Source of the DNA: Draconibacterium orientale
GTDB lineage: Bacteria; Bacteroidota; Bacteroidia; Bacteroidales; UBA1556
Assembly (NCBI GenBank): GCA_020718275.1
Contig: DYSI01000021.1
Span: forward strand, 1-34,479
DNA: 34,479 nucleotides
Direction: 5' to 3'
Below are positions 16,256-30,861 of this stretch, in pieces (position 1 is the first letter of the stretch; every line of letters starts with the position of its first letter). Both the position numbers and the translations under genes were made by a program. The notes beneath the pieces were generated by a model. The model ran no database searches. It saw only the letters and a list, made by a program, of their open reading frames with translations, and was not told the origin of the DNA.

Positions 16256-17545
16256 ATGAAGAAGAATATTGGGTACACAAATCACCCGAACAATGAAATT
16301 AACTGGTTTAGCTGGTTGTTATTATTGCTAAATCTTGGCAGTGCGTATTTGATTTCGCAAATTGAAGAATACAATTTGTTTTTCCTTTTACTATTGGGTG
16401 CCAACATGCTTTTGGCCTTAGTATTTTATAGAAAAATTAATGCTTCGGTATTGAATATTTCCAGAGTTCTTTTAGGATTATTATTTATTTATTCAGGCTT
16501 TGTAAAAGGTGTAGATCCCCTTGGAACTCAATACCGAATTGAGGATTATTTTTTCGCCTATGGAATGGATTGGGCAGCGCCTATGGCATTAATTTTATCA
16601 GTGATTCTGAATGCGTTTGAGTTTTCGCTTGGTCTACTATTGTTGCTCCGAATAAAGATGAAATGGTTGAGCTGGCTCGCTTTTGCAATGATGTTAGTCT
16701 TCACTTTGACCACTTTATATGATGCTCTTTACAGTCCTGTTCCAGATTGTGGTTGTTTTGGCGATGCTCTAATAATTACCAATTGGCAAACTTTTTATAA
16801 AAATCTGGTGATAAACGCATTGGTAATACTGGTGTTACTACGTCGGTATGATTTTAGAAAATACCAAAACCAAATGCTAGAATGGGGGATTATAGGAGTT
16901 GTGGTATTTGGTTTTGTATTTTTTGAGCAGTATAATATTAATAATTTGCCAATAATCAATTTTCGCCCCTGGAAAGTGGACAATCGCTTACTTCCTGAAA
17001 ATCCCAAGCCAGTAAAATATTTCTTGACCTATAAACATAAAACCACTGGGGAAGAAAAAGAGTTTTTGTCGAAGGATTTACCATGGCAAGATTCAGTTTT
17101 TATGGCTAATTACCAATGGTTATCTTCGCGCGAAGAAGATCCTAATATTGCAGACATGAATATTTTCCCCATGCTTGATGCAGATGGAAATGATGTTTCA
17201 AAAGAATTAGTGTCGGATTCACAAAATGTATATTTACTAGTGGTGTACAATCTGAATAAATTTCCGCTTCAAACAATAGCTGAAATAAATCAATTTTATA
17301 CGGAAGCCGAAAATGCGAATCAACGTATGGTACTATTAACGAGTGCTTTACCTGATGAATTAAAACTGTTTGTGAATAAAAATGAACTTGCAGAAATGCC
17401 TGTTTATTACAGCGATGATACGGCTTTGAAAATGGCTATTCGTTCCAATCCAGGCTTAATTGTTGTCAGAACTGGTAAAATATTGGCCAATTATCATTAT
17501 CGTAATTTTCCAGAATTCTCTCAGCTTAAAAAACCAACTCTTTGA
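16256..17545 (+). CDS. BT_3928-type DoxX family membrane protein with thioredoxin-like tail
   Basis: 429 residues. The first half (about 15-225) has seven or so hydrophobic segments with DoxX/MauE-like features, including SRVLLGLLFIYSGFVKGVDPLGTQ and the DCGCFGDAL motif whose cysteines (near residue 165) resemble redox-active pairs in MauE/vitamin K reductase-like proteins. The soluble C-terminal half (about 310-420) has a thioredoxin-like rhythm (VYLLVVYNLNKF, MPVYYSDD, PGLIVVRTGKIL) but lacks a CxxC. It presumably acts in envelope redox chemistry; unproven. Its stop overlaps the permease start (TTGA). Confidence 0.75.
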   Translation: MKKNIGYTNHPNNEINWFSWLLLLLNLGSAYLISQIEEYNLFFLLLLGANMLLALVFYRKINASVLNISRVLLGLLFIYSGFVKGVDPLGTQYRIEDYFFAYGMDWAAPMALILSVILNAFEFSLGLLLLLRIKMKWLSWLAFAMMLVFTLTTLYDALYSPVPDCGCFGDALIITNWQTFYKNLVINALVILVLLRRYDFRKYQNQMLEWGIIGVVVFGFVFFEQYNINNLPIINFRPWKVDNRLLPENPKPVKYFLTYKHKTTGEEKEFLSKDLPWQDSVFMANYQWLSSREEDPNIADMNIFPMLDADGNDVSKELVSDSQNVYLLVVYNLNKFPLQTIAEINQFYTEAENANQRMVLLTSALPDELKLFVNKNELAEMPVYYSDDTALKMAIRSNPGLIVVRTGKILANYHYRNFPEFSQLKKPTL

Positions 17546-18621
17546 TAAACTTTATTTTCAAGCGGCTTTTCTATGGTTTCCTGGTGCTTGTAGGGGTGGT
17601 AAGCATCGTTTTTTTTCTTTTTAATGTGCTACCAGGAGACCCAGCTCGAATGATGCTTGGACAAAGGGCAGACAGTGCTTCGGTGGCTGCTATTAACAAA
17701 GATTTAGGAAGAGATCAGACCATTGGAATCCAATTTTTAAATTATCTGAATGATTTATCGCCCGTGTCGTTTCACAAGCGAAACGATGCCGAAAGTTTTT
17801 GGTATTTCAATCCAGAAAAGTATTCTAGTGCCCGCCCTTTATTCCGTTTGGGCAATCAGTGGGTAATGGTAGTTAAACCGCCTTACCTGAGAAGATCCTA
17901 TCAAAATGCTAGGCCAGTGACCGAAATATTAAATGAAGCGTTTCCAAAAACCGCTTTGCTGGCGGTAGTTTCCGTTTCTATCGCGCTATTTTTTGGCCTC
18001 ATACTAGGGATTTTATCGGCAATCTATAAAGATAGTTGGTTTGATAAAATCACCTTGGTGGTTAGTTCCAGTGGAATGTCATTACCGAGCTTTTTTGCAG
18101 CTATTCTGTTTGCATGGCTTTTTGCCTTTGTGCTTGCTCCATATACAGGACTGAGCATGTTTGGTAGTCTGTATTCGGTGGATGATTTTGGAAGAGGTGA
18201 GTTTATAAATCTTAAAAATTTAATCTTACCGGCCATTGTTCTTGGAATTAGACCTTTAGCCATTGTGGTAGAACTTACGCGTAGTTCTTTGATTGATGTT
18301 ATGTCGCAAGATTATATTAGAACAGCCAAAGCCAAAGGTTTATCACCGATACGAATTTTGATGAAACACAGTCTGCGGAACGCGATGAATCCTGTTATCA
18401 CCGCCATTTCAGGTTGGCTAGCATCGCTTATGGCTGGGGCTGTATTTGTAGAGTACGTTTTCGACTGGAAAGGGATAGGAGTGGCAATAGTGGATGCATT
18501 GAACAAGTATGATTTGCCAGTGGTGATGGGAGCGGTGATGCTGATTTCTGTGATGCTAGTTATAATAAATATTCTGGTGGATATTATCTATGCCTACTTG
18601 GATCCGCGTATACGCTTGTGA
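17542..18621 (+). CDS. Orphan DppB/OppB-type ABC transporter permease
   Basis: 359-residue inner-membrane permease of the peptide/nickel importer family. The N-terminus has the family helix and VLPGDPARMMLGQ. The EAA loop that contacts the ATPase is KAKGLSPIRILMKHSLRNAMNPV, followed by the typical final helices. An insert of about 75 residues between the first helix and the core (around 50-125) is longer than in E. coli DppB. The only start that covers the N-terminus is the TTG at 17542, overlapping the DoxX stop. No second permease, ATPase or binding protein lies in the window, so partners must be elsewhere. It is convergent with the next gene across two bases. Confidence 0.85.
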   Translation: MINFIFKRLFYGFLVLVGVVSIVFFLFNVLPGDPARMMLGQRADSASVAAINKDLGRDQTIGIQFLNYLNDLSPVSFHKRNDAESFWYFNPEKYSSARPLFRLGNQWVMVVKPPYLRRSYQNARPVTEILNEAFPKTALLAVVSVSIALFFGLILGILSAIYKDSWFDKITLVVSSSGMSLPSFFAAILFAWLFAFVLAPYTGLSMFGSLYSVDDFGRGEFINLKNLILPAIVLGIRPLAIVVELTRSSLIDVMSQDYIRTAKAKGLSPIRILMKHSLRNAMNPVITAISGWLASLMAGAVFVEYVFDWKGIGVAIVDALNKYDLPVVMGAVMLISVMLVIINILVDIIYAYLDPRIRL

Positions 18622-18623
18622 TA

Positions 18624-19877
18624 TTAGAGGTACATGCAATACAATTCCTTGTAACGATTGTCGATGTTTCCCTGATATAGGAAATATAACCTTCCATTAT
18701 TAATTTGCATATTTTCAAGGTGTTGAAAATGAGGGATGTTGATTTTGTTGCCAATTTTTCCCAATTGGAGATCAATTTCGGCAATTTTATATTGACCATT
18801 TTTAGCAAATACAGCATAGATTTTTTTCTGTACGCTATCTATTAATAAATCCTGTTTCCAATCCGGCTGTTGATGGAATTCAATGGCGGTATTCGATATT
18901 GTATTTCCTTGTTTGTCAAGTTTTTCAATTCTATTTTCATTGAAATTAAACAGTAAAAATGAAGTGTCAAAATAGATAAGAGGCAAATATTTAGGGGCAT
19001 AAAAGCACATTTCTTCAAATCTAGCATCTGCTTCAGTATAATCTAAAGCACTTTGCAAGCGGGCTTTGTCTTTAAGTCGTTCGATTCCTGCTGAATCAGT
19101 TATCGATTTCAAAAGTTTTACCTCCTGATTTTGTTCATTGTAGCGGTAGATGCGTACCAATTGATTGTCGTAGTAGTTGTGGCGTATGTAATAAAATGGA
19201 CTTTGATAAGCAATGATAGCTTCGTTGATTTCGTTAAATTCATCCATTTCTATTTCATTTCCAAAAGCTATTATGGAATCAAGGATCAGGATTTGCAGGG
19301 CACTTTTCTTACTGGTTAAAAAGGGTTCTAGCTTATAATCATTCACAATTTTATCAATCCATTCCATTTCTTTCGACTCAATTTGATTTCCATAGCCATC
19401 CAAAAGCACTAATTGGGCCTGCTGACTTTGTCTGTTTTTGAAGCATAAAACACAAATTTTATTCTCAAAAATCAAATAATCAATAACATATAAATTTTTC
19501 TTTTCAACAAGATTCGTAATGCGATTAGATGAAATTTCAACTATTCCTAAGTTCTTTGTTTCCGCTTTTAGCTGAATTACCAGTTGAGTATCCACTCGGT
19601 AAATTAATTTTTGTTGAGTTTTAAAACCCACATGACTTATTTTTATGGTACTTCGATTGTTTGGAATAACAAGTGAAAATTTACCATTCGCATCGGTTGA
19701 GGTGCCAATTTTGGATGCATCGACTGCTATATTTACATTTGGAATAGCTCTATGGGTCACGGAGTCGACGACAATTCCAGAAACTTTTATCGATTGGGAG
19801 AAACCCTCCAAGGCAAGGAATAGGCTCATCCAGCAAATAAACCTAATTCCCTGCTTCATAAAATTCCAGCTTTTCAT
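18624..19877 (-). CDS. Exported CarboxypepD_reg-like domain protein, unknown C-terminal domain
   Basis: 417 residues. A signal peptide ends near ALEGFSQS (about residue 28); an internal ATG at 19859 could be the true start. Residues 30-115 form a CarboxypepD_reg-like beta-sandwich (VSGIVVDSVTHRAIPNVNIAV, GTSTDANGKFSL, ISHVGFKTQQ), the domain common at the front of SusC/TonB receptors. Here no plug or barrel follows. The remaining 300 residues contain repeated short beta-strand patterns (LVLLDGYGNQIES, RIEKLDKQGNTIS, KIAEIDLQLGKIG) that suggest, weakly, a beta-propeller. It is second in a pair with the plug protein (35 bases upstream). No T9SS tail is visible, so it is probably periplasmic. 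Confidence 0.72.
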   Translation of the reverse strand: MKSWNFMKQGIRFICWMSLFLALEGFSQSIKVSGIVVDSVTHRAIPNVNIAVDASKIGTSTDANGKFSLVIPNNRSTIKISHVGFKTQQKLIYRVDTQLVIQLKAETKNLGIVEISSNRITNLVEKKNLYVIDYLIFENKICVLCFKNRQSQQAQLVLLDGYGNQIESKEMEWIDKIVNDYKLEPFLTSKKSALQILILDSIIAFGNEIEMDEFNEINEAIIAYQSPFYYIRHNYYDNQLVRIYRYNEQNQEVKLLKSITDSAGIERLKDKARLQSALDYTEADARFEEMCFYAPKYLPLIYFDTSFLLFNFNENRIEKLDKQGNTISNTAIEFHQQPDWKQDLLIDSVQKKIYAVFAKNGQYKIAEIDLQLGKIGNKINIPHFQHLENMQINNGRLYFLYQGNIDNRYKELYCMYL

Positions 19878-19912: not shown

Positions 19913-20671
19913 TTAATTATCCTCTGTGGGGGTATTGCTTTGTGAAGTTTCCCAATACAGACGATCTCTAGCCTGTTTAATACTAAGCCAATCGAAATAT
20001 CCAAGTGTTTCAATTACGATTACGCCGCCGGTAAAATCGCCGTATTTTGCAGGAATTCCGCCAGCATAAATGGTTGTATTACTAATTGCAAAGCCGGGTA
20101 TTCCGCGCGTATCAGGAACTCTTACGCCATCAATTATATAGGCAGTCATATCATCGCGTGAACCTCTGAAATGGATTTCCCTTTGGTTATCACTGATAAA
20201 GAATTCAGTACTAATGGCTTCTATTGTTCGCATAATCGATCGATTATCAGGCATTCTCTTGTTTTGCGTTAAATCTATTGCTACAATATTTCCATCATAT
20301 TTGTTAATTAATGGTTTTTGATTGCCATAAATAATGATGGTATCCATCCCAATGCCTGCACTGAGTAGCAGATTACCCAAATCAGTGTCAAAATCAGCGC
20401 GAACGTCGATGTTTGTTACAGAACGTGTTTGAAAGCCAACATAAGAAACCTCTACGGTATATCTTCCTGGTTCTATGGGTTTAATGATAAAATGTCCATC
20501 AATATTACTGATAGCACCTTGTATTCCATTTCGGGTATGAATCACGATTGATGCTCCTGGCAGGCTTGTATTCTCCGATTTGTTGATAATATAACCTGAT
20601 AAACTGCCCTGACTTTGACCAAAGCTTAGAAAGCTTGTAAATACGATGATAATTGCTAAAATTGTTTTCAT
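19913..20671 (-). CDS. Stand-alone TonB-receptor plug protein lacking a beta-barrel
   Basis: 252 residues. The signal peptide ends at FGQS (about residue 20). A CarboxypepD_reg-like domain (22-105) has LPGASIVIHTRNG, GAISNIDGHF and SYVGFQTRS. A TonB-receptor plug domain (about 120-230) has EIHFRGSRDDMTAYIIDGVRVPD and AGGIPAKYGDFTGGVIVIET. Translation stops about 30 residues after the plug, where receptors begin a 500-700-residue barrel. The next gene starts 35 bases later and is not a barrel, so there is no frameshift copy. I start at ATG 20671, directly before the signal peptide; the open frame extends to 20776. It may serve as a periplasmic partner or decoy, or be a relic. Intact, undegraded sequence favours a functional protein. 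Confidence 0.8.
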   Translation of the reverse strand: MKTILAIIIVFTSFLSFGQSQGSLSGYIINKSENTSLPGASIVIHTRNGIQGAISNIDGHFIIKPIEPGRYTVEVSYVGFQTRSVTNIDVRADFDTDLGNLLLSAGIGMDTIIIYGNQKPLINKYDGNIVAIDLTQNKRMPDNRSIMRTIEAISTEFFISDNQREIHFRGSRDDMTAYIIDGVRVPDTRGIPGFAISNTTIYAGGIPAKYGDFTGGVIVIETLGYFDWLSIKQARDRLYWETSQSNTPTEDN

Positions 20672-20696: not shown

Positions 20697-20704
20697 CAAA
20701 TATA
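20697..20704 (-). promoter_or_regulatory. -7 box of the plug-protein pair
   Basis: The minus strand reads TATATTTG, an exact TAnnTTTG. A TTTA 18 bases upstream (complement of 20723-20726) is a possible -33 element. The predicted leader is about 22 bases to the ATG at 20671, which supports that start. Confidence 0.45.
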
Positions 20705-21252: not shown

Positions 21253-21764
21253 TTTTCCATAAATTAATAATTTAGTAGCAATTAATTAATATTATTAGTG
21301 AGTCATAACGAGATTTTTTATCCTAAAATGAAATGATATTTAATATGTATATATCTGGTATTAGAAGTAGGCATCATCATGTATATTGCTTTTAAAATGG
21401 CAAATTGATTCAGTGTTTTATTGCTTTCTGCCATTTATCAAAAAGATTCTGCATCTGTCTAGGTTTTTCTGCTGGTTTCACATTACTTGATTTAAAAAAA
21501 TGCAATTATCAGGTGTCTTAGGACAATGCTCAAATTGTGAGAGATGAAAGGATACTGTTTTATCGTTATTTTGCTATCAAAAAAATGTTAGAATACTGAT
21601 GCTATAAAACTGATAATGATGATAAAATACTATGAATCTATGATTTAGATAATCTTAAGTTTTTAAAATTATAGGGTAGAATTTTCGAGATTAATTTATA
21701 TCTTTAGGGCATTGATTTTTACCCTTACTGGACAAAATTGTTATCGATTTATGCGCTCAAAAAA
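21253..21764. other. Gene-free AT-rich region upstream of the CheR-like gene
   Basis: About 510 bases. On the minus strand, 21410-21505 is a 31-codon open stretch from a TTG (including KPAEKPRQMQNLFDKWQKAI) that resembles the tail of a lost gene. A near-match to the -7 box, TATCTTTA at 21699-21706, may serve the CheR-like gene. Nothing else is supported. Confidence 0.45.
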
Positions 21765-22595
21765 ATGAAACAATCAATCAAGCAAATTGTTAAACGTCTT
21801 CATGATGAATTTCACCTAGACACTAGCCATTATAAGGATGATTTTGTGGAGCAAATTATTTTAAAAAATATTTCCATTATCAAGGAACTGTTTAAAGAGT
21901 CTAAGCCTGAAGCAATAGAAGGTAAACAACAAAATGTTGAAAAGATAGTGGCTAAACTTCAAAATAACTACACCGATTTTTTTCGTAATCCGTTTACCTA
22001 CGCTGTTTTATCCAATGTGGTTTTTCCGACTTTATTTTTTAACGCTAATTTTCCTTCCAATAAAGAGATACGCGTTTGGTCAGCCGCCTGTGCTTCGGGG
22101 CTAGAAGCCTTTAGTTTAGCTATTATTTTGGAAGAATTTTTTAAACGCCATTTACTTAGTCCACGATATAGAATTTTTGCTACCGATCGCAGTAATATGA
22201 TTATTAATCAGGCAAAAAAAGCCGCTTTTAGCCATGATGAATTGAAAAGTTTGAGTAAGGAGCAAGTCGAGCTTGGCTTTGATCTAAAAGAATCTAATTA
22301 TTGTATCAAGCCATCAATCCAAACAAAGATTTCATTTTCAACTTTTGATTTAATTAGCGAGAAAACTAATTGTCCTTCAGTTAGCATATACGGTGATTTT
22401 CACATTATTATGATTGCCAATTTGCTTTTTTATTACAAATCGAGCATTCAAAAGAAAATAATCAATAGAGTTCTACAATGTATGTCGAAAGATAGCTATC
22501 TCATAAGTGGTGAAACTGAAAGGGAAATTCTAATGGCCGCTTCCTTGGTTGAGATAGTGCCTAATTCCTGTGTTTTCCAAATGAAACCTGCTTAA
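21765..22595 (+). CDS. Divergent CheR-type SAM-dependent methyltransferase
   Basis: 276 residues resembling chemotaxis receptor glutamate methyltransferases. There is an N-terminal helical part (1-65), then TDFFRNPF (about 71-77; consensus T-FFR-P), RVWSAACASGLEAFSLAI (about 103-119; consensus SAM-binding WSAGCSTGEEPYSLA), and IFATD (137-141). The strand that normally reads DLIFCRNVLIYF is HIIMIANLLFYY (about 213-224), so the conserved Cys-Arg is lost although the Asn remains. GYLxxGHSE becomes SYLISGETE. It probably still binds SAM; receptor specificity is doubtful. I start at ATG 21765 rather than TTG 21738. It lies 75 bases before a membrane hybrid kinase. No CheB, CheA, CheW or MCP is present. 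Confidence 0.75.
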   Translation: MKQSIKQIVKRLHDEFHLDTSHYKDDFVEQIILKNISIIKELFKESKPEAIEGKQQNVEKIVAKLQNNYTDFFRNPFTYAVLSNVVFPTLFFNANFPSNKEIRVWSAACASGLEAFSLAIILEEFFKRHLLSPRYRIFATDRSNMIINQAKKAAFSHDELKSLSKEQVELGFDLKESNYCIKPSIQTKISFSTFDLISEKTNCPSVSIYGDFHIIMIANLLFYYKSSIQKKIINRVLQCMSKDSYLISGETEREILMAASLVEIVPNSCVFQMKPA

Positions 22596-22670
22596 TTTTA
22601 AATATTTGTTACTTTAATATCAGAACGATTAAACGAAAATATTAATATTCACCGAGTTAATTTTAAATGT

Positions 22671-25643
22671 ATGAATTTCAGTAATTTAACAATCAGAACC
22701 CAAATGAAAATTAGTTTTACGGTGGTAATCCTATTAATGACTTCAATAGGAATATTCTCTAATTTTCAATTGCTTAAAATGCATGAGCAAATTGAATTGA
22801 TGTATGAACATCCAATGGAGGTTTCTCGGGACATTGGTAAATTAAGAACGGATGTTTATTTGATTCATTGGAACTTTGAGAAATTTTTGATTACAAAGGA
22901 TACTCAACGTCAAAACGATTATCTGAAGGCGGTTTATTTAAAAGATCAAGATGCGATTCGTCAATTGGACATACTTGAAAATAAGTTTTTGGGTCCAAAA
23001 CAGCAAATTGAATCTTTAAGGATCGATTTTTATACTTGTAGAAAAAATAGAGAAGAGGTTATTCATCTGATACAAGTAGGGCAATTTGAATTAGCGACTA
23101 ATTTAAATATGCATTCAACAGATGAAGTCGATTCCGATCATATTAAGTTGCTTGAGAAAAAAATAGCGATTATCGATCAGTTTGCCTCTAATAAAGCCCA
23201 GGGAATTGAGAAGAGATCCTTTCATCTTTTTATCCAGATGGCAAAAAGTTTAGGGGTATTAATATTAATAGCTGTACTCGTGGTTATAATTTTCTATTTT
23301 GTAATTCGCGTTGGCGTTTTGAATCCTATTATGGAGTTTACTAAACTGACCAATCGGTTCAAAGATGGCGACCTAGGCGTACGATTTAATTTTATGAATA
23401 AGAATGAGTTAGGACTACTCGCTAGTTCATTTAACCAACTAGTATCGCAAGTACAATTAAATGTAGAATTAAACAAAAAAAATAATGAACTTGCCCAAAC
23501 TATGCTTATGGAAGGGGAGTCATCAGTAATATTTCAAACCATGCTCAAAAATCTATGCCAGCACACTAATTCGCAGATGGCTGCTTTTTACTTAAAATCA
23601 GAAAACAATAAGCAATTTTATCATTTTCAATCGATTGGACTAAGTGATAAAGCAAAACAATCATTCGATTCAGCCAATTACGAGGGGGAATTTGGACTGT
23701 CCTTAAGCACAAAAGAAATTCAACACATCAAAAACTTAAATCCAAATCATATTTTTGAGTTTAGCATGGTGTCTGGTAAAATGATGCCAACAGAAATTAT
23801 CAATATCCCTATTGTTGAACACAATCAAGTTTTGGCCATTATTTCCTTAGCAAGTGTCAATGCCTATTCCACTAAAGCTATTGAATTTGTATATTTTACG
23901 CAGAAAATTTTAACAAGTAGTATTTCTAATATTTTAAATACCAACAATTTAAAAGAATTAAGTACACAACTTGAAAAGAAGAATCATGATTTAATCATAC
24001 AAAAAACTGAAATAGCCTCGCAAAAGGATGAATTGTTGGTTCAGAATAATGAGCTTGTGTTTCAGAAAAGGCAATTAGAGGATATGAATAAGATGAAGAC
24101 CATTTTCTTATCCAATATGAGTCACGAATTGAGGACCCCACTCAATTCGGTAATTGCCCTTTCTGGCGTACTGGAACGAAAACTTCAAAATGCTATCTCT
24201 GAAGAGGAGTTTAGCTATCTCAGTGTAATACAACGAAATGGAAAGCATTTGCTGAATTTAATAAACGACATTTTAGATCTTGCTAGAATTGAATCAGGTC
24301 GGGAGGAGTTAGAGATTCAAGTTTTTGATATTTGTCTTTTAGTGACCGAAATTACTGATTTGATAAAACCGCAAGCCCAAATTAAGGACTTAGAATTGGA
24401 GCAGATACCATGCAACACGCTTATCGAGATAGAATCAGATGCAGCAAAATGTCGTCATATATTTACGAATTTGATTGGCAATGCAGTTAAATTTACTGAG
24501 CATGGAAAAGTTACTGTCGCAATTCAAGCTAATTCTCAAGAAATAATTATAAGTGTTAAAGATACCGGAATTGGTATAGAATCAAATCAATTTGAGAATA
24601 TTTTTGATGAGTTTAGACAAGCCGATGGATCAAATTCAAAAAAGTTTGGCGGCACAGGACTCGGCTTATCGATCGCCAAAAAATACGTTGAGATGTTGCA
24701 TGGATACATCCAAGTACAAAGTCAACTCAATTATGGTTCCGAATTTATCGTTCATCTACCAGTAACTATGAAAATGGAAATGAGTCATTTGCCTACATTA
24801 CTCGATTCGGAAAAGGAATTTGCTACCGCGCCCAGAATGCTTTCGAGTGCACACAAAATCCATATCCTCTTGGTTGATGATAGTGAGCCAGCAATCATTC
24901 AATTAAGCGATGTTTTAAGCGAACAAGGATATCAAATCCACGTGGCTCGTAATGGCAACGAAGCAATCGAGCAAATTGGCAAGCATATTCCGGAAGCGGT
25001 AATCTTAGATTTGATGATGCCAGAAATTGATGGTTTTGAGGTGCTTGCTAGAATACGCGAAAACGAAGATACCATGAATGTGAAAGTACTGATTCTTACC
25101 GCAAAACACATTAGCAAGGAGGAACTGAAGTTTTTGAAAAGAAGTGGAGTGCACCAATTAATACAAAAAGGCGATATTAATAGAAAGGACTTACTCGCCG
25201 CGGTAAGTTCTATGTTTGATATTATAAAGGAACCAATCTCCAAAACTGAAATAATATTCCCGAACTATGATGAAAATATTGAAATCCTTGTAGTTGAGGA
25301 TAATCCTGATAATATGCTAACTATTAAAGCTTTATTGAAAGATAGATTTAAAGTTTTGAAAGCGTTAAACGGTTTTGATGCAATCAGAATGGCCAAGCTT
25401 CATAAACCTCGCTTAATTTTGATGGATATTGAGATGCCCATTTTGAACGGAATGGAAGCTTTTAAAGCAATACGCTCTAATCCCGAATTGCAGGATATAC
25501 CTATCGTGGCTGTTTCTGCAAGTGTGATGAATGATGAAATTATAAAGACTACCGAGCTTGGCTTTGAGGCCTTCCTCTCTAAGCCAATCGATATCGATAA
25601 ATTATATCAAACCATCAATAAGCTCGTTTATGGAAATCGATAA
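22671..25643 (+). CDS. Membrane hybrid histidine kinase with two receiver domains
   Basis: 990 residues. Order: TM1 (about 14-34), a periplasmic helical sensor of about 155 residues resembling the four-helix-bundle MCP type, TM2 (about 190-212), HAMP (about 213-265), a GAF-like domain (about 280-420), a coiled coil (425-475), HisKA with phospho-acceptor His485 in MSHELRTPLNS, HATPase_c with N-box near 602 (NLIGNAVKF) and GGTGLGLS near 660, receiver 1 (Asp780 in LDLMMP), and receiver 2 (Asp919 in LMDIEMP). All catalytic motifs are intact. It presumably autophosphorylates His485 and passes phosphate to its own receivers; no Hpt domain or DNA-binding output is encoded. The next kinase starts inside its last codons. 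Confidence 0.9.
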   Translation: MNFSNLTIRTQMKISFTVVILLMTSIGIFSNFQLLKMHEQIELMYEHPMEVSRDIGKLRTDVYLIHWNFEKFLITKDTQRQNDYLKAVYLKDQDAIRQLDILENKFLGPKQQIESLRIDFYTCRKNREEVIHLIQVGQFELATNLNMHSTDEVDSDHIKLLEKKIAIIDQFASNKAQGIEKRSFHLFIQMAKSLGVLILIAVLVVIIFYFVIRVGVLNPIMEFTKLTNRFKDGDLGVRFNFMNKNELGLLASSFNQLVSQVQLNVELNKKNNELAQTMLMEGESSVIFQTMLKNLCQHTNSQMAAFYLKSENNKQFYHFQSIGLSDKAKQSFDSANYEGEFGLSLSTKEIQHIKNLNPNHIFEFSMVSGKMMPTEIINIPIVEHNQVLAIISLASVNAYSTKAIEFVYFTQKILTSSISNILNTNNLKELSTQLEKKNHDLIIQKTEIASQKDELLVQNNELVFQKRQLEDMNKMKTIFLSNMSHELRTPLNSVIALSGVLERKLQNAISEEEFSYLSVIQRNGKHLLNLINDILDLARIESGREELEIQVFDICLLVTEITDLIKPQAQIKDLELEQIPCNTLIEIESDAAKCRHIFTNLIGNAVKFTEHGKVTVAIQANSQEIIISVKDTGIGIESNQFENIFDEFRQADGSNSKKFGGTGLGLSIAKKYVEMLHGYIQVQSQLNYGSEFIVHLPVTMKMEMSHLPTLLDSEKEFATAPRMLSSAHKIHILLVDDSEPAIIQLSDVLSEQGYQIHVARNGNEAIEQIGKHIPEAVILDLMMPEIDGFEVLARIRENEDTMNVKVLILTAKHISKEELKFLKRSGVHQLIQKGDINRKDLLAAVSSMFDIIKEPISKTEIIFPNYDENIEILVVEDNPDNMLTIKALLKDRFKVLKALNGFDAIRMAKLHKPRLILMDIEMPILNGMEAFKAIRSNPELQDIPIVAVSASVMNDEIIKTTELGFEAFLSKPIDIDKLYQTINKLVYGNR

Positions 25644-28600
25644 AATTAGAATACTCGCCATTGATGATTTAGAGGATAATCTCATAAGTCTCAAAGCTTT
25701 AATTTATGAATCATTCCCAAATGCTAAGGTTTTCACTGCTTCCAATGGAATGCAAGGTTTGGAAATGGCAGTCGCCATAGAACCTGACCTGATTTTGTTA
25801 GATGTTCTAATGCCCAAAATGGATGGCTATCAAGTTTGTCAAAAACTAAAGGCAGATGAAGAGTTAAAAGATATTCCAGTAGTTTTTTTAACCGCGCTCA
25901 GAGATGATAAAGTAAATAGAATCAAAGCCTTGGAAGTGGGAGCAGAGGCCTTTCTTGCTAAACCGATTGACAATATTGAATTGATTGCTCAGATACGAGC
26001 TATGTTTAAAATTAAGGAAGCTAGCCAACTCAAAAAATCAGAAACTGAAAGGCTTAAACAATTGGTTGATGAACGCACCGAACACCTTAAACAAGAATTA
26101 ATTAGACGAACAGAAGCTGAGGAAAAGCTTAGGCAAAGTGAAGAAAAATATAAATTATTATCAAATTTAACTTTTGAAGGAATTATTATCCATCGAAATG
26201 GTAAAATTTTAGAGGTTAATCACTCATTTCTTGAAATAACGGGCTATAAATATCAAGAAATTATAGGAAAAAATGTTTTTGATTATGTACATCCTGACGA
26301 TATAAATACTGTAAAGGAAAATATTAATAAGGAATATGCTGATTCATATATCATTAGAGCTATTAACGCAAAAGGAGAATTGAGATTTGTTGAAATTCAA
26401 GGGCGAAACTTTTTAAAAGGGGATGAGATATTTAGGGTAATAGCCTTACGTGATGTCACCATTCAACAGCAAAACGAAATAGCGCTAGAAGAAGGTCGTA
26501 AGCTAATGACTAGAACATTTGATAAAAGCCCGATTGCCATGGGTATTAGTCGCGATAGGATAATAACCGAAATAAATCCCAAAACTTGTGAATTATTAGG
26601 ATATCAAAAAGAAGAACTGATTGGCCAAAATAATTCAATCTTATACTTCTCCGCAGAGGAAAATCGTCGTTCGACCATTGAAATTACGCATCAAATTGAA
26701 GCACATGGTGTTGGAGAAACCGAAACCATCTTTCGCAAGAAAAATGGTGAATTAATAAATATACTTTTACATGCAATTATTCTCTCATTGCCAGATCAAG
26801 CGCCAACGGTTTTGGCAACTGCTATTGATATTACTGAACGTAAACAAACCGAAAAGCAAGTAAATCACATAGCTCGACATTACCAAGCGATTATCGAAAA
26901 TGCAGCCGATGGAATCGTATTGATTAATCAGTTTGGACTGTTCAAATATATCAGCAATAGTGCTAAAAAAATGTTTGGTGATTTGCCTGAGGGTTTATAT
27001 CAACAGAACCCAAAAGAATGCATACATCCAGATGATATTCAATGGTTAGACGAAGAGCTTAATAAAATCGTCCTAAATCCGAGTTTCCAACCTACACTAG
27101 AGTACCGTTTGCGAAATAGCAAAGACGAATATTTTTGGGTTGAAAGTACTTTTTCAAATTTGTTTCATGATCTTGATGTTCAAGCTATAGTAATCAATTT
27201 TAGAAATATTACTGATCGTAAAATAGCAAAACAAGCGCTCATCGAAAGCGAGAAAAAGTATCATCAATTTTATGATCTAACGCGCTTAATGACTGATACT
27301 TTACCTGAACTGATTTGGGCGAAAAACCTCCAAAAGGAATATATCTTTGCTAACAAAGCTATTTGCAACGAATTTCTAATGACCAATGATACAGAAGAAC
27401 CAATAGGAAAAACAGATGTATATTTTTCGGAACGCGAACGCGACAAACATCCAGAAAATCCAAACTGGCACACATTCGGAACAATATGCAATAAAAGCGA
27501 CCAAGAAGTATTGCAATCAAAAACGCTCATTAAAGTTGAAGAAACTTTTTATATTAAAGGAGCGCTTAAAGTTTTTGAAACCATCAAAGCGCCGATGTAT
27601 AATGAAGAAGGGTCAATAATTGGGATTGTTGGAACCTCAAAAGAAATTACAAGCCGCAAAATAGCCGAAGCTGAACTGAAGAATAGTGAAGAAAAATATA
27701 GGATGCTCTTCAATATTCATCGCGATTGCTTGTCGATATTGACGTTACCAACAGATGGCTCTAGTCCTCGAATAATTGCTGTTAATGATGCAGCTGCTAA
27801 ATTGTTTGGATTCCCAAAAGAACAATTAATAAACAGTACCTTAGTTGAACTTAATAATTGTTTCTGCAATGAAATAGTAGCTGAACAGATGCTTGAGTTG
27901 ATTGAAAAGGGAACTCTTGAATTTGAATCCTCTTTTGTGGATCGAAAGGGTGAAAAACACATTGTGGATGTAAAAATTACGATTATTCAATATCAAGGGA
28001 TAAAAGCACGGTTAAATATTATCAGAGATATTACCTCCCGAAAGCTAGCACAAGATAAAAGTGAAGAGCAGTATTCTCTTCTTAATGCATTGATTAATAG
28101 TCCTAAAGACATTAATATTTTTTCTGTAGACCGGAATTATTGCTTCACCACATTCAATACTAATTACTTTAAGGAGATGCGAGTTGTTTGGAAAAAAAAC
28201 ATCGAATTAGGGAAGAATATTTTGGAATACATAGATCATCAAGCCACCCTGATGGAAGTAAAATCAAGAATTGATCGGGTGCTTAAAGGGGAAAGTTTTA
28301 ACGAAATTCAGCATCAACCACATTTTGACGTTTACTACGGAATAAATTGGAACCCTGTAATTGTTTCGGGTGAAGTGTTAGGTGCTACGGTCTTTATTCA
28401 GAATATTACAGAACGTAAACGAGCAGAAAAGCATTTAGCCGATAGTGAAGAAAAGCACCGCATCCTGTTTCTGGATTCGCCTGATGCATATCTTGTGCAG
28501 ATTGATGGTGTTTTTGTGGATTGTAACAAGGCAACTGCTCGTATGTTTGCTTGCCAAAAGGAACAAATTATTGGCAAAACATCTGTTGATTTATCTCCTG

Positions 28601-30861
28601 ATATACAGCTAGATGGCGCCAATTCAAGTTATGCAGCCATGCAACATATAGCGAATGCTTTTAAAACTGGATTGACCACTTTTGACTGGATTCATAAGCG
28701 CATTGATAATACAGAATTTTATTGCGAAGTTTCTTTGTCAAGCATTCCATATAATGGAAAAGCTGCATTATTTACCACTGTCCGCGATATTTCAGAGCGT
28801 AGAATAGTTGAAAATCAATTGGTAGAAAGTGAACAAAATTATCGTCAACTCACTGAGACCATGCAAGAGTATTTGGCTGTTGTGGATGCGAAGGGTAATT
28901 TCCTATTTGCCAATGCCCAAGCGGTAAAACTTTTTGAGTTGAATGACAAGAACAGCTTGATAGGCTACAATATTCAAGACTTTGTGGCTCAACGACAAGC
29001 AGATGATCTAATTCAACAATATCAAGAAGTAATTGAAAAAGGTGAAATATTAAATCAAGAACTGAATTTAATCATTGGTGGCACCAATAAATGGTTTTAT
29101 AATAGTCTGAGGCCTTTGTATTTTGGTAAAGATAAAACCCCCTCTGTTATGACTATTTTAATGGAGATAACAGATAGCAAACGATCGGTTTTAATTCAAC
29201 AGATGCAGTTAAGCATAATGCGGGATATTTTGCAATCAGAATCCTTTGGTGAAATTATTAAAAGCGTAATAAGTAAGCTTGGTCAACTTTTTAATACTTC
29301 CAACTTCTTCGTGGCTCTCTACAATGCCGAGAAAAATACACTCAATCAAGTAGCATTTCAAGATGAAATTGGTTTTTATAATGAATGGAGTGTTGATCAA
29401 TCTATATCGGGACAACTTATTAAGCAAGCTAAAACCTTACTGTTAAACAAAAAGCAAATCAACGCTTTAATAAGTGAGCAAGAAATTGAACTTATTGGCA
29501 AAGTGCCAGCCTGCTTTATGGGAGTTCCAATTTACTTGAAGGGTGAAATTAAAGGCGTAATGGTTTTGCAACATTATACTATTACCAAGGCTTTTAGTCA
29601 AAATGATACCGATATTTTAGAAATGGTATCGCATCAAATATCAATCTTTCTCGAAAGGCAATTGATGATTGAAGATCTGACCTTTGCCAAGCAAAAGGCT
29701 GAAGAAAGTGAACGCTTAAAATCGGCTTTTTTAGCCAATATGAGTCACGAAATACGAACTCCAATGAATGGGATTCTTGGCTTTGCAGGGCTATTAAGTG
29801 AACCAAATCTGAGTGGTGATGATAGGCGCGATTACGTGGATATTATTGTCAAAAGTGGAAATAGAATGCTGAATATCATCAACGACATTATCAATATTTC
29901 TAAAATAGAATCGGGTTTAATGCAACTTTCTATTTCGGTAAATAATATCAATCATCATATTGATTACATCCGCAACTTCTTTAAATTAGAAGCTTCGCAA
30001 AAGGATATAAGCATCTTCACCACCAAAACATTGTTAGATGAACAAGCTGAAATTGTATGTGATAAAGAAAAATTGCTTGCAATCTTAATTAATTTAGTGA
30101 AGAATGCACTGAAATTTACCGATGAAGGTTTCGTTGAATTTGGCTATGAATTGAAAGGAGAATTTTTGGAATTCTATGTCAAAGACAGTGGAATTGGCAT
30201 TCCTGAAAACCGAAGAGAAGCAGTTTTTGAGAGATTTATACAAGCAGATATTTCCGATGTACGAGCATTTCAAGGAGCTGGATTAGGATTATCCATTACC
30301 AAAGCATACGTGGAAATGATGGGAGGAAAACTTTGGCTTAGCAGTGACGATAATCCATATTCTGAAAATCACGGTTCAACATTCCATTTTACTATTCCGT
30401 ATATTATTGATAAAAAAGGAGATACGCTTGCTGTAGGTCATGATGTGCGGGATATGTCAATGTATGATAGAAAACTCAAAGTGCTAATTGTGGATGATGT
30501 TGAAACCTCCAGAACGCTATTAAGCATATCAATTAAAGATTTTTGTATGGAAATTATTACTGCAGAAAACGGACTGCAAGCAGTGGAATTATGTAAAAAG
30601 CATCAAGATTTGGATTTGGTACTGATGGATTTAAAAATGCCAATTATGGATGGTTTTCAGGCTACTCGCTTAATTCGGCAATTCAATCAAAAGATAATTA
30701 TCCTTGCGCAAACGGCTTATGCCCTTTTAGGCGACCGAGAACTTGCCATGGCAGCAGGCTGTAGCGATTACATTACCAAACCAATCAATAGTAAAGTTTT
30801 ACATGAAATTATCGATAGAAATTTTCGACCAAATAATCTTGCTGATGCTGAGTTGCTTTAG
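25630..30861 (+). CDS. Giant hybrid histidine kinase: REC - 8 PAS - GAF - HisKA - HATPase - REC
   Basis: 1,743 residues, no membrane segment, so cytoplasmic. The N-terminal receiver has Asp58 (LLDVLMP). About eight PAS/PAC units follow, starting near residues 171, 290, 417, 552, 687, 815, 937 and 1070, each closing with a PAC-like RDIT-R or NITERK and a linker like SEEKYRML. A GAF domain spans about 1197-1350. HisKA has His1373 in MSHEIRTPMNG, HATPase_c has NLVKNALKF and GAGLGLS, and the C-terminal receiver has Asp1667 (LMDLKMP). I start at ATG 25630, which overlaps the previous stop by 14 bases and gives a proper receiver start; an upstream in-frame extension to 25558 is not credible. The N-terminal receiver could accept phosphate from the preceding kinase, making a two-kinase relay; ligands unknown. 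Confidence 0.88.
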   Translation: MEIDKIRILAIDDLEDNLISLKALIYESFPNAKVFTASNGMQGLEMAVAIEPDLILLDVLMPKMDGYQVCQKLKADEELKDIPVVFLTALRDDKVNRIKALEVGAEAFLAKPIDNIELIAQIRAMFKIKEASQLKKSETERLKQLVDERTEHLKQELIRRTEAEEKLRQSEEKYKLLSNLTFEGIIIHRNGKILEVNHSFLEITGYKYQEIIGKNVFDYVHPDDINTVKENINKEYADSYIIRAINAKGELRFVEIQGRNFLKGDEIFRVIALRDVTIQQQNEIALEEGRKLMTRTFDKSPIAMGISRDRIITEINPKTCELLGYQKEELIGQNNSILYFSAEENRRSTIEITHQIEAHGVGETETIFRKKNGELINILLHAIILSLPDQAPTVLATAIDITERKQTEKQVNHIARHYQAIIENAADGIVLINQFGLFKYISNSAKKMFGDLPEGLYQQNPKECIHPDDIQWLDEELNKIVLNPSFQPTLEYRLRNSKDEYFWVESTFSNLFHDLDVQAIVINFRNITDRKIAKQALIESEKKYHQFYDLTRLMTDTLPELIWAKNLQKEYIFANKAICNEFLMTNDTEEPIGKTDVYFSERERDKHPENPNWHTFGTICNKSDQEVLQSKTLIKVEETFYIKGALKVFETIKAPMYNEEGSIIGIVGTSKEITSRKIAEAELKNSEEKYRMLFNIHRDCLSILTLPTDGSSPRIIAVNDAAAKLFGFPKEQLINSTLVELNNCFCNEIVAEQMLELIEKGTLEFESSFVDRKGEKHIVDVKITIIQYQGIKARLNIIRDITSRKLAQDKSEEQYSLLNALINSPKDINIFSVDRNYCFTTFNTNYFKEMRVVWKKNIELGKNILEYIDHQATLMEVKSRIDRVLKGESFNEIQHQPHFDVYYGINWNPVIVSGEVLGATVFIQNITERKRAEKHLADSEEKHRILFLDSPDAYLVQIDGVFVDCNKATARMFACQKEQIIGKTSVDLSPDIQLDGANSSYAAMQHIANAFKTGLTTFDWIHKRIDNTEFYCEVSLSSIPYNGKAALFTTVRDISERRIVENQLVESEQNYRQLTETMQEYLAVVDAKGNFLFANAQAVKLFELNDKNSLIGYNIQDFVAQRQADDLIQQYQEVIEKGEILNQELNLIIGGTNKWFYNSLRPLYFGKDKTPSVMTILMEITDSKRSVLIQQMQLSIMRDILQSESFGEIIKSVISKLGQLFNTSNFFVALYNAEKNTLNQVAFQDEIGFYNEWSVDQSISGQLIKQAKTLLLNKKQINALISEQEIELIGKVPACFMGVPIYLKGEIKGVMVLQHYTITKAFSQNDTDILEMVSHQISIFLERQLMIEDLTFAKQKAEESERLKSAFLANMSHEIRTPMNGILGFAGLLSEPNLSGDDRRDYVDIIVKSGNRMLNIINDIINISKIESGLMQLSISVNNINHHIDYIRNFFKLEASQKDISIFTTKTLLDEQAEIVCDKEKLLAILINLVKNALKFTDEGFVEFGYELKGEFLEFYVKDSGIGIPENRREAVFERFIQADISDVRAFQGAGLGLSITKAYVEMMGGKLWLSSDDNPYSENHGSTFHFTIPYIIDKKGDTLAVGHDVRDMSMYDRKLKVLIVDDVETSRTLLSISIKDFCMEIITAENGLQAVELCKKHQDLDLVLMDLKMPIMDGFQATRLIRQFNQKIIILAQTAYALLGDRELAMAAGCSDYITKPINSKVLHEIIDRNFRPNNLADAELL

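Follow-up and report, generated by a model that had tools for sequence, protein, structure and literature searches.

The plugs of TonB-dependent receptors are generally regarded as parts of a barrel, and in the open-licence literature we found no description of barrel-less, isolated or plug-only plugs. SusC/RagA-type receptors carry a CarboxypepD_reg-like extension followed by a plug, an arrangement that is shared, colinearly with the solved receptors 9gbc_A and 5t3r_D, by the protein described here; unlike them, this protein has no barrel and has residues of its own at the plug end. FecI/FecR signalling offers another comparison: relatives of our locus likewise combine an ECF sigma factor, a membrane anti-sigma factor and a part derived from a TonB receptor, but the plug protein has no STN domain, the anti-sigma protein no FecR domain, and there is no barrel. 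In the Dma-type ECF systems of Bacteroidota the anti-sigma domain is followed by a single membrane helix, a long portion in the periplasm and a terminal beta-barrel, and Das2 is an ECF21 sigma factor (PMC13088901). The anti-sigma proteins encoded near our relatives likewise belong to Bacteroidota ECF systems and share this plan up to the periplasmic portion, but they end in TPR rather than in the beta-barrel of Dma.

Here we analyse a stretch of 34,479 nucleotides from Draconibacterium orientale (contig DYSI01000021.1; hereafter the window) that encodes a plug alone. If the reading proposed below is true, it would give a plug a first natural role away from its barrel, the receptor part having turned into a free-standing protein and the plug into a separate tool, and many proteins that a domain search would call truncated receptors would be explained.

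A plug encoded without its barrel

The features of the locus are as follows.

19913..20671, minus strand: plug-only gene, 252 amino acids (open frame and Pfam; family of 84 loci)
20697..20704, minus strand: TAnnTTTG box, -33 from the ATG (promoter-region scan)
20618..20671, minus strand: predicted signal peptide, residues 1-18 (hydropathy and cysteine scan)
20333..20605, minus strand: CarboxypepD_reg-like domain, residues 23-113 (Pfam)
20306..20347, minus strand: stretch matching the TonB-box region of sister receptors, residues 109-122 (position only, column comparison)
20021..20242, minus strand: TonB-receptor plug, residues 144-217 (Pfam; PDB profile matches)
19988..20011, minus strand: family-specific plug end, residues 221-228, ETLGYFDW (column comparison)
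18624..19877, minus strand: partner gene, 417 amino acids, with signal peptide, CarboxypepD_reg domain and probable beta-propeller (Pfam; low-confidence model)

The original prediction, made from the sequence alone, was of a plug domain that ends without a barrel, and this is what the gene encodes: a signal peptide, a CarboxypepD_reg-like domain and a plug, then about 35 residues and a stop. CarbopepD_reg_2 (2.6e-14) and CarboxypepD_reg (8e-14) both match above their Pfam cut-offs; the Plug match (4e-4) extends to the last profile position and, at 21.3 bits, falls 2.6 bits short of the cut-off of 23.9, while 27 of the 29 members of a family alignment match Pfam Plug at E <= 0.01. Against solved TonB receptors, the profile of these 29 members aligns with 9gbc_A over profile positions 6-224 (E 7e-17) and with the SusC homologue 5t3r_D over positions 2-225 (E 1e-12). 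Since the profile stays colinear with the receptors through the plug end, the plug is complete, with the stop falling about where the barrel would begin. No 22-strand outer-membrane barrel is present in the protein, which stops 35 residues past the Pfam plug, and, as had been stated, the next gene is not a barrel fragment. No STN domain occurs among the Pfam matches of the 29 members, and a scan of the window protein found no cysteine, hence no lipobox or lipoprotein signal. NCBIfam has no dedicated family for the protein. An AlphaFold2 model of the protein alone, from a two-row alignment, reached a pLDDT of 43, too poor for a surface to be mapped on the plug.

The partner gene starts 35 bases past the plug-only stop on the same strand and the gene beyond it lies on the other strand, so that the window holds a two-gene unit. 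Outside its CarboxypepD_reg domain the partner protein has no Pfam match. Its model (pLDDT 57.9) matches BT2095, BamB and NHL domains with TM-scores below 0.4, while the first domain has one good match, the SusC N-terminal extension 9hfj. These suggestive matches point to a probable beta-propeller, and we use the name propeller gene below.

A family confined to one branch

Plug-only genes were found in three of the ten other genomes of the genus searched; their products are 52, 37 and 37% identical to the window protein, in frames of 276, 281 and 258 residues when residues before the start are counted. One further gene was found in a genome of another family of the order, and JAOZKO010000063.1, a Bacteroidales metagenome genome, is one relative that carries a plug-only gene. 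Profile searches recovered plug-only frames, scoring above full receptors, in at least 28 of 393 genomes of the order, and many more from other families in a class sample of 395 genomes. Neighbourhoods were read at 84 loci, of which 29 come from the order and 55 from the class sample (Bacteroidia), which puts the family at 84 members or more; the second plug-only copy of G116 and short frames in G294, G270:C104, G667 and G415:C41 were dropped before counting. A phylum-wide search gave matches at E <= 1e-45 in 4 of 296 genomes, a sample rich in genomes of the same class and so little informative beyond it. No relative of the protein was found in the viral contigs searched. A horizontal or plasmid-borne element was considered and rejected: a plasmid search gave six records, none covering 80% of the query, and five annotated plasmid records were four TonB-dependent receptors and one collagen-binding protein.

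A quick tree was built from the 84 plug-only rows together with 21 rows of sister receptors and 11 of other receptors; in it all 84 fall on one side of a branch with an SH-aLRT of 90, which is below the 95 mark. The 21 sister receptors (about 1225 residues) form one side of another branch (SH-aLRT 93), and the window's group of 17 one side of a third (support 85). Ratios of dN/dS were 0.02-0.25 in nine pairs of relatives with 66-97% protein identity, which bears out the view that the gene encodes a real, selected protein and shows no decay. An equal-length family with the same downstream gene had been set beforehand as a test, and the family passes it: the propeller gene is directly downstream in 17 of the 29 order loci (the window and 16 others). 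The contrary outcome named there, that close relatives would have a complete receptor gene at this locus, was not seen; in the three other genomes of the genus with a plug-only gene, that gene lies beside the same propeller gene. The plug-only gene is not a recent truncation. A single loss of the barrel, long ago, followed by conservation is the best explanation of the family, one we hold tentatively, as a whole.

Sister receptors and the end of the plug

The closest relatives of the plug are full receptors, about 30-38% identical to plug-only proteins, in which Pfam recognizes CarboxypepD_reg, Plug and the TonB_dep_Rec barrel (e.g. L041:6953-10588). These sister receptors differ from the plug-only protein in having a full barrel, and in the one neighbourhood read (L041) the receptor is not accompanied by a propeller gene. 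There (L041:1828-10588) it adjoins genes of 1339 and 350 residues, neither with Pfam matches; the product of the latter presumably resembles PorV-type proteins. The receptor of about 1225 residues is also encoded, at another place, in the other three genus genomes that have a plug-only gene, where it is about 30-34% identical to plug-only proteins. It occurs as well in members of the genus that yielded no plug-only gene, and the 71% complete assembly of the window itself shows no full-length copy.

Comparison of 57 core plug-only rows with 21 full receptors located three family-specific positions at or beside the plug end. Tyr202 is present in 57/57 plug-only rows and mostly replaced by Ile or Val in receptors; Glu221 occurs in 56/57 rows, as opposed to Thr in 19 of the 21 receptors; and position 225 is Tyr or Phe in 57/57 rows but Pro in 19/21 receptors. 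Nearly invariant residues, peculiar to the family and placed at the former barrel junction, suggest that the truncated end serves a purpose itself. Where receptors have the TonB box, the aligned stretch is partly kept, with hydrophobic residues and PLI(D) conserved (V/I114 in 53/57, I122 in 49/57 plug-only rows); otherwise it is relaxed and less conserved than in full receptors, Tyr117 being found in 20/57 plug-only rows versus 21/21 receptors.

Sigma factors, anti-sigma factors and the propeller gene

The 84 loci fall into four arrangements: 17 with the propeller gene directly downstream; 40 with sigma and anti-sigma genes downstream on the same strand, 14 of them followed by a propeller gene; 13 with a sigma gene on the opposite strand; and 14 with neither. 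Within the order, genes for an ECF sigma and an anti-sigma factor lie downstream in 12 of the 29 loci, and in 11 of these 12 the propeller gene follows, i.e. two genes further along than in the 17 loci mentioned above; one sigma-linked locus with a propeller gene (L149) has a 2-kb gap after the plug gene. The class sample of 55 loci divides into 28 with sigma and anti-sigma genes downstream on the same strand (three then with a propeller gene), 13 with a sigma gene on the opposite strand, and 14 with neither within the stretch read.

All eight sigma proteins scanned match Sigma70_r2, Sigma70_r4_2 and the general ECF model of NCBIfam. Seven anti-sigma proteins scanned have C-terminal TPR families and one hydrophobic segment near residues 72-91 (7/7), with zf-HC2 in two; neither FecR nor a barrel family was found among their Pfam matches. 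At the window locus there is no ECF sigma gene beside the plug gene, and a profile search of 11 genomes of the genus for a cognate anti-sigma protein gave only partial TPR matches (best E 2.8e-8, profile positions 265-371).

Reverse searches set limits to these linkages. A sigma gene is present in all 30 anti-sigma loci fetched, with a plug gene within the flank in 12, a plug gene known from the neighbourhood survey in 6 more, and none shown in 12. Full-length propeller genes occur in the same 4 of 11 genus genomes as plug-only genes, and a fifth genome has a propeller fragment at the edge of a contig. When 30 propeller loci were fetched, 14 showed linkage to plug or sigma/anti-sigma genes. 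Every one of these belongs to the 17 loci scoring above 420 bits, and the 13 weaker ones are unlinked.

Promoters and co-regulated genes

We scanned the 160 bases before plug genes. The promoter box that had been proposed before the window gene is present (TATATTTG, TAnnTTTG, window 20704-20697); we take such boxes to be the housekeeping-type -7 box of Bacteroidota. This box was found in 6/16 window-type loci, the window included, versus 0/38 sigma-type loci. TATG and CATC spaced 14-19 apart occur in 16/38 sigma-type loci versus 0.3 expected from shuffles, and the ECF-type promoter takes the form TTTATGGAAT-N13-GCATCTA.

Scored as TATGGAA-N13..18-GCATCT with at least 11 of the 13 letters, an ECF site precedes 10/12 sigma-linked plug genes of the order, but only 13/28 of those of the class sample reach the threshold; because the motif was derived from sigma-linked loci, these 23/40 are not independent evidence. 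Divergent and unlinked loci lay outside the derivation, and their 15/27 (7/13 and 8/14, respectively) are independent. None of the 17 window-type plug genes has the site, and shuffles gave 0.01-0.03. The motif is thus found before 38/67 plug genes outside the window's group versus 0/17 inside it (Fisher p 1e-5). In two genomes with window-type plug loci (G235, G313) an ECF site does stand before a TPR anti-sigma gene, and in G235 also before an alpha-2-macroglobulin-type gene, so the sigma factor has not been lost in the whole of the window's group. The exact pattern had 39 matches in 34 genomes, and its reversed form 4; allowing two mismatches at most gave 135 matches in 30 genomes versus 46 for the reversed-pattern control. 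The searched members of the window's genus gave four exact matches, three within reading frames and the fourth at the end of a contig.

To the plug-only genes found behind ECF sites, reading of the downstream genes at 30 loci and at 60 regions, the latter picked by eye from the match lists, added several other kinds. Five of the 60 regions are doubtful, the site lying inside a reading frame (L330, L332, L335, L368, L370), and three have no gene behind the site (L340, L356, L362). Propeller genes unlinked to plug genes follow ECF sites in eight genomes bearing three family codes (L279, L346, L350, L351, L358, L363, L367, L380), and sigma genes in three genomes (L281, L294, L342). TonB-type genes stand behind five sites, in four genomes only (L284, L381, L334, L361, L375), alpha-2-macroglobulin-type genes behind seven sites in six genomes (L270, L291, L274, L290, L360, L365, L383), and DUF4139-type genes behind sites in seven genomes (L328, L329, L347, L348, L354, L374, L378); these three names come from Pfam for three, one and one proteins, respectively, and from similarity to these for the others. 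VIT/VWA and VWA-CarboxypepD_reg genes (L271, L326, L333, L364), MG2 proteins (L355, L359, L384) and a serpin (L339) complete the set. We found no description of such a Bacteroidota envelope response in the open-licence literature; the motif, the operon and the partner gene offer a testable entry into it.

A possible envelope-protection effector

We propose that the plug-only protein is a periplasmic effector that acts with its propeller partner, and possibly with TonB, and that stems from an envelope-protection regulon; we would put the probability of this reading at roughly 0.4. After loss of the barrel, the N-terminal extension and plug of a receptor would have been kept as a separate periplasmic protein. 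Across Bacteroidia its gene would be a target of an ECF sigma factor, co-encoded or unlinked, with a membrane-bound TPR anti-sigma protein, in one regulon that may comprise plug-only, CarboxypepD-propeller, TonB and various envelope proteins, those of protease-inhibitor type among them. The locus of the window's Bacteroidales group would have lost its sigma gene, its anti-sigma gene and its ECF promoter, leaving plug and propeller as a two-gene operon, probably under a housekeeping-type promoter in the window. That the two proteins work together is suggested by the promoter they have in common where they lie far apart and by their common operon in the window, which is our best evidence. The TonB and protease-inhibitor-type proteins of the regulon are the reason for preferring a role in envelope protection with TonB contact. 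The two proteins may cooperate in the periplasm, perhaps as a complex, with the plug presenting in trans a surface that TonB could reach or that is receptor-like, against a stress that the regulon would meet. The original reading of function stood in so far as the protein is real and under selection; it lacked the operon and the minus strand, the sigma regulon of the relatives and the sister receptors.

A rather less probable reading makes the plug-only protein a sensor or ligand of the membrane anti-sigma protein, in a form of cell-surface signalling that has a free plug in place of the receptor that touches FecR. Sigma and anti-sigma genes on the same strand in 40/84 loci, and divergent sigma genes in 13, are what it would lead one to expect, as are the single hydrophobic segment (7/7) and TPR end of the anti-sigma protein, and the ECF promoters of plug genes would allow a feedback loop. 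Yet 17 loci, including the window, keep plug and propeller without adjoining sigma genes, the search of 11 genus genomes for the anti-sigma protein gave only the partial TPR matches, and neither FecR nor STN domains were found in the anti-sigma (7) or plug-only (29) proteins. Moreover, 8/14 sigma-unlinked plug genes carry the promoter as a target would; these unlinked copies, and the persistence of the pair without adjoining sigma genes in the window's group, argue that the plug-only gene is a sigma target rather than only a sensor.

That the plug acts in trans, docking into the sister receptor or another open-barrel receptor or competing with it for TonB, seems unlikely. The tree does contain a sister family of full receptors, and one is encoded in each of the other three genus genomes with a plug-only gene; but the junction residues (Tyr202, Glu221, aromatic 225) are consistently changed, the receptor is also present in members of the genus that yielded no plug-only gene, and the window's 71% complete assembly shows no full-length copy. 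That the gene is what is left of a truncated receptor in decay, or an artefact of assembly, we regard as highly improbable: the protein does end where a barrel should begin, and one relative (G002), near a contig end, has no ATG, GTG or TTG at the expected start, but 84 loci share the same end point, with conserved partners and promoters and under purifying selection, and no barrel sequence follows the window gene. Recent truncation or decay is ruled out by the family, tree, dN/dS and promoter data.

Returning to the effector reading, its broadest form, which we put forward a shade more tentatively, is a class-wide Bacteroidia ECF regulon in which a free plug, a propeller and a TonB of its own would join alpha-2-macroglobulin-, serpin- and VIT/VWA-type proteins in protecting the envelope, with the window's lineage representing a tool freed from its regulator.

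Other observations

The propeller gene adjoins a dipeptide-type ABC permease gene both in L039:975-3393 and in the window (17542-19877), whereas the plug-propeller pair of G006 and G008 has as its neighbour what we take to be a phosphate-transporter-like gene. Elsewhere in the window (21738-30861) a CheR-type methyltransferase gene (Pfam) is followed by two large genes of 990 and 1767 residues, which read like hybrid sensor kinases with receivers. In L118:1-12001 a plug-only gene lies near a VWA/YfbK-CarboxypepD_reg gene, with sigma and anti-sigma genes divergent; two genes on its other side presumably encode M16 peptidases. Two tandem plug-only genes about 3.5 kb apart occur in G116:C291:7143-11322. 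Finally, a 101-residue mini-plug with a signal peptide and without the CarboxypepD_reg domain is encoded behind an ECF-type site with two mismatches in L345:1918-2217 (G699:C3).
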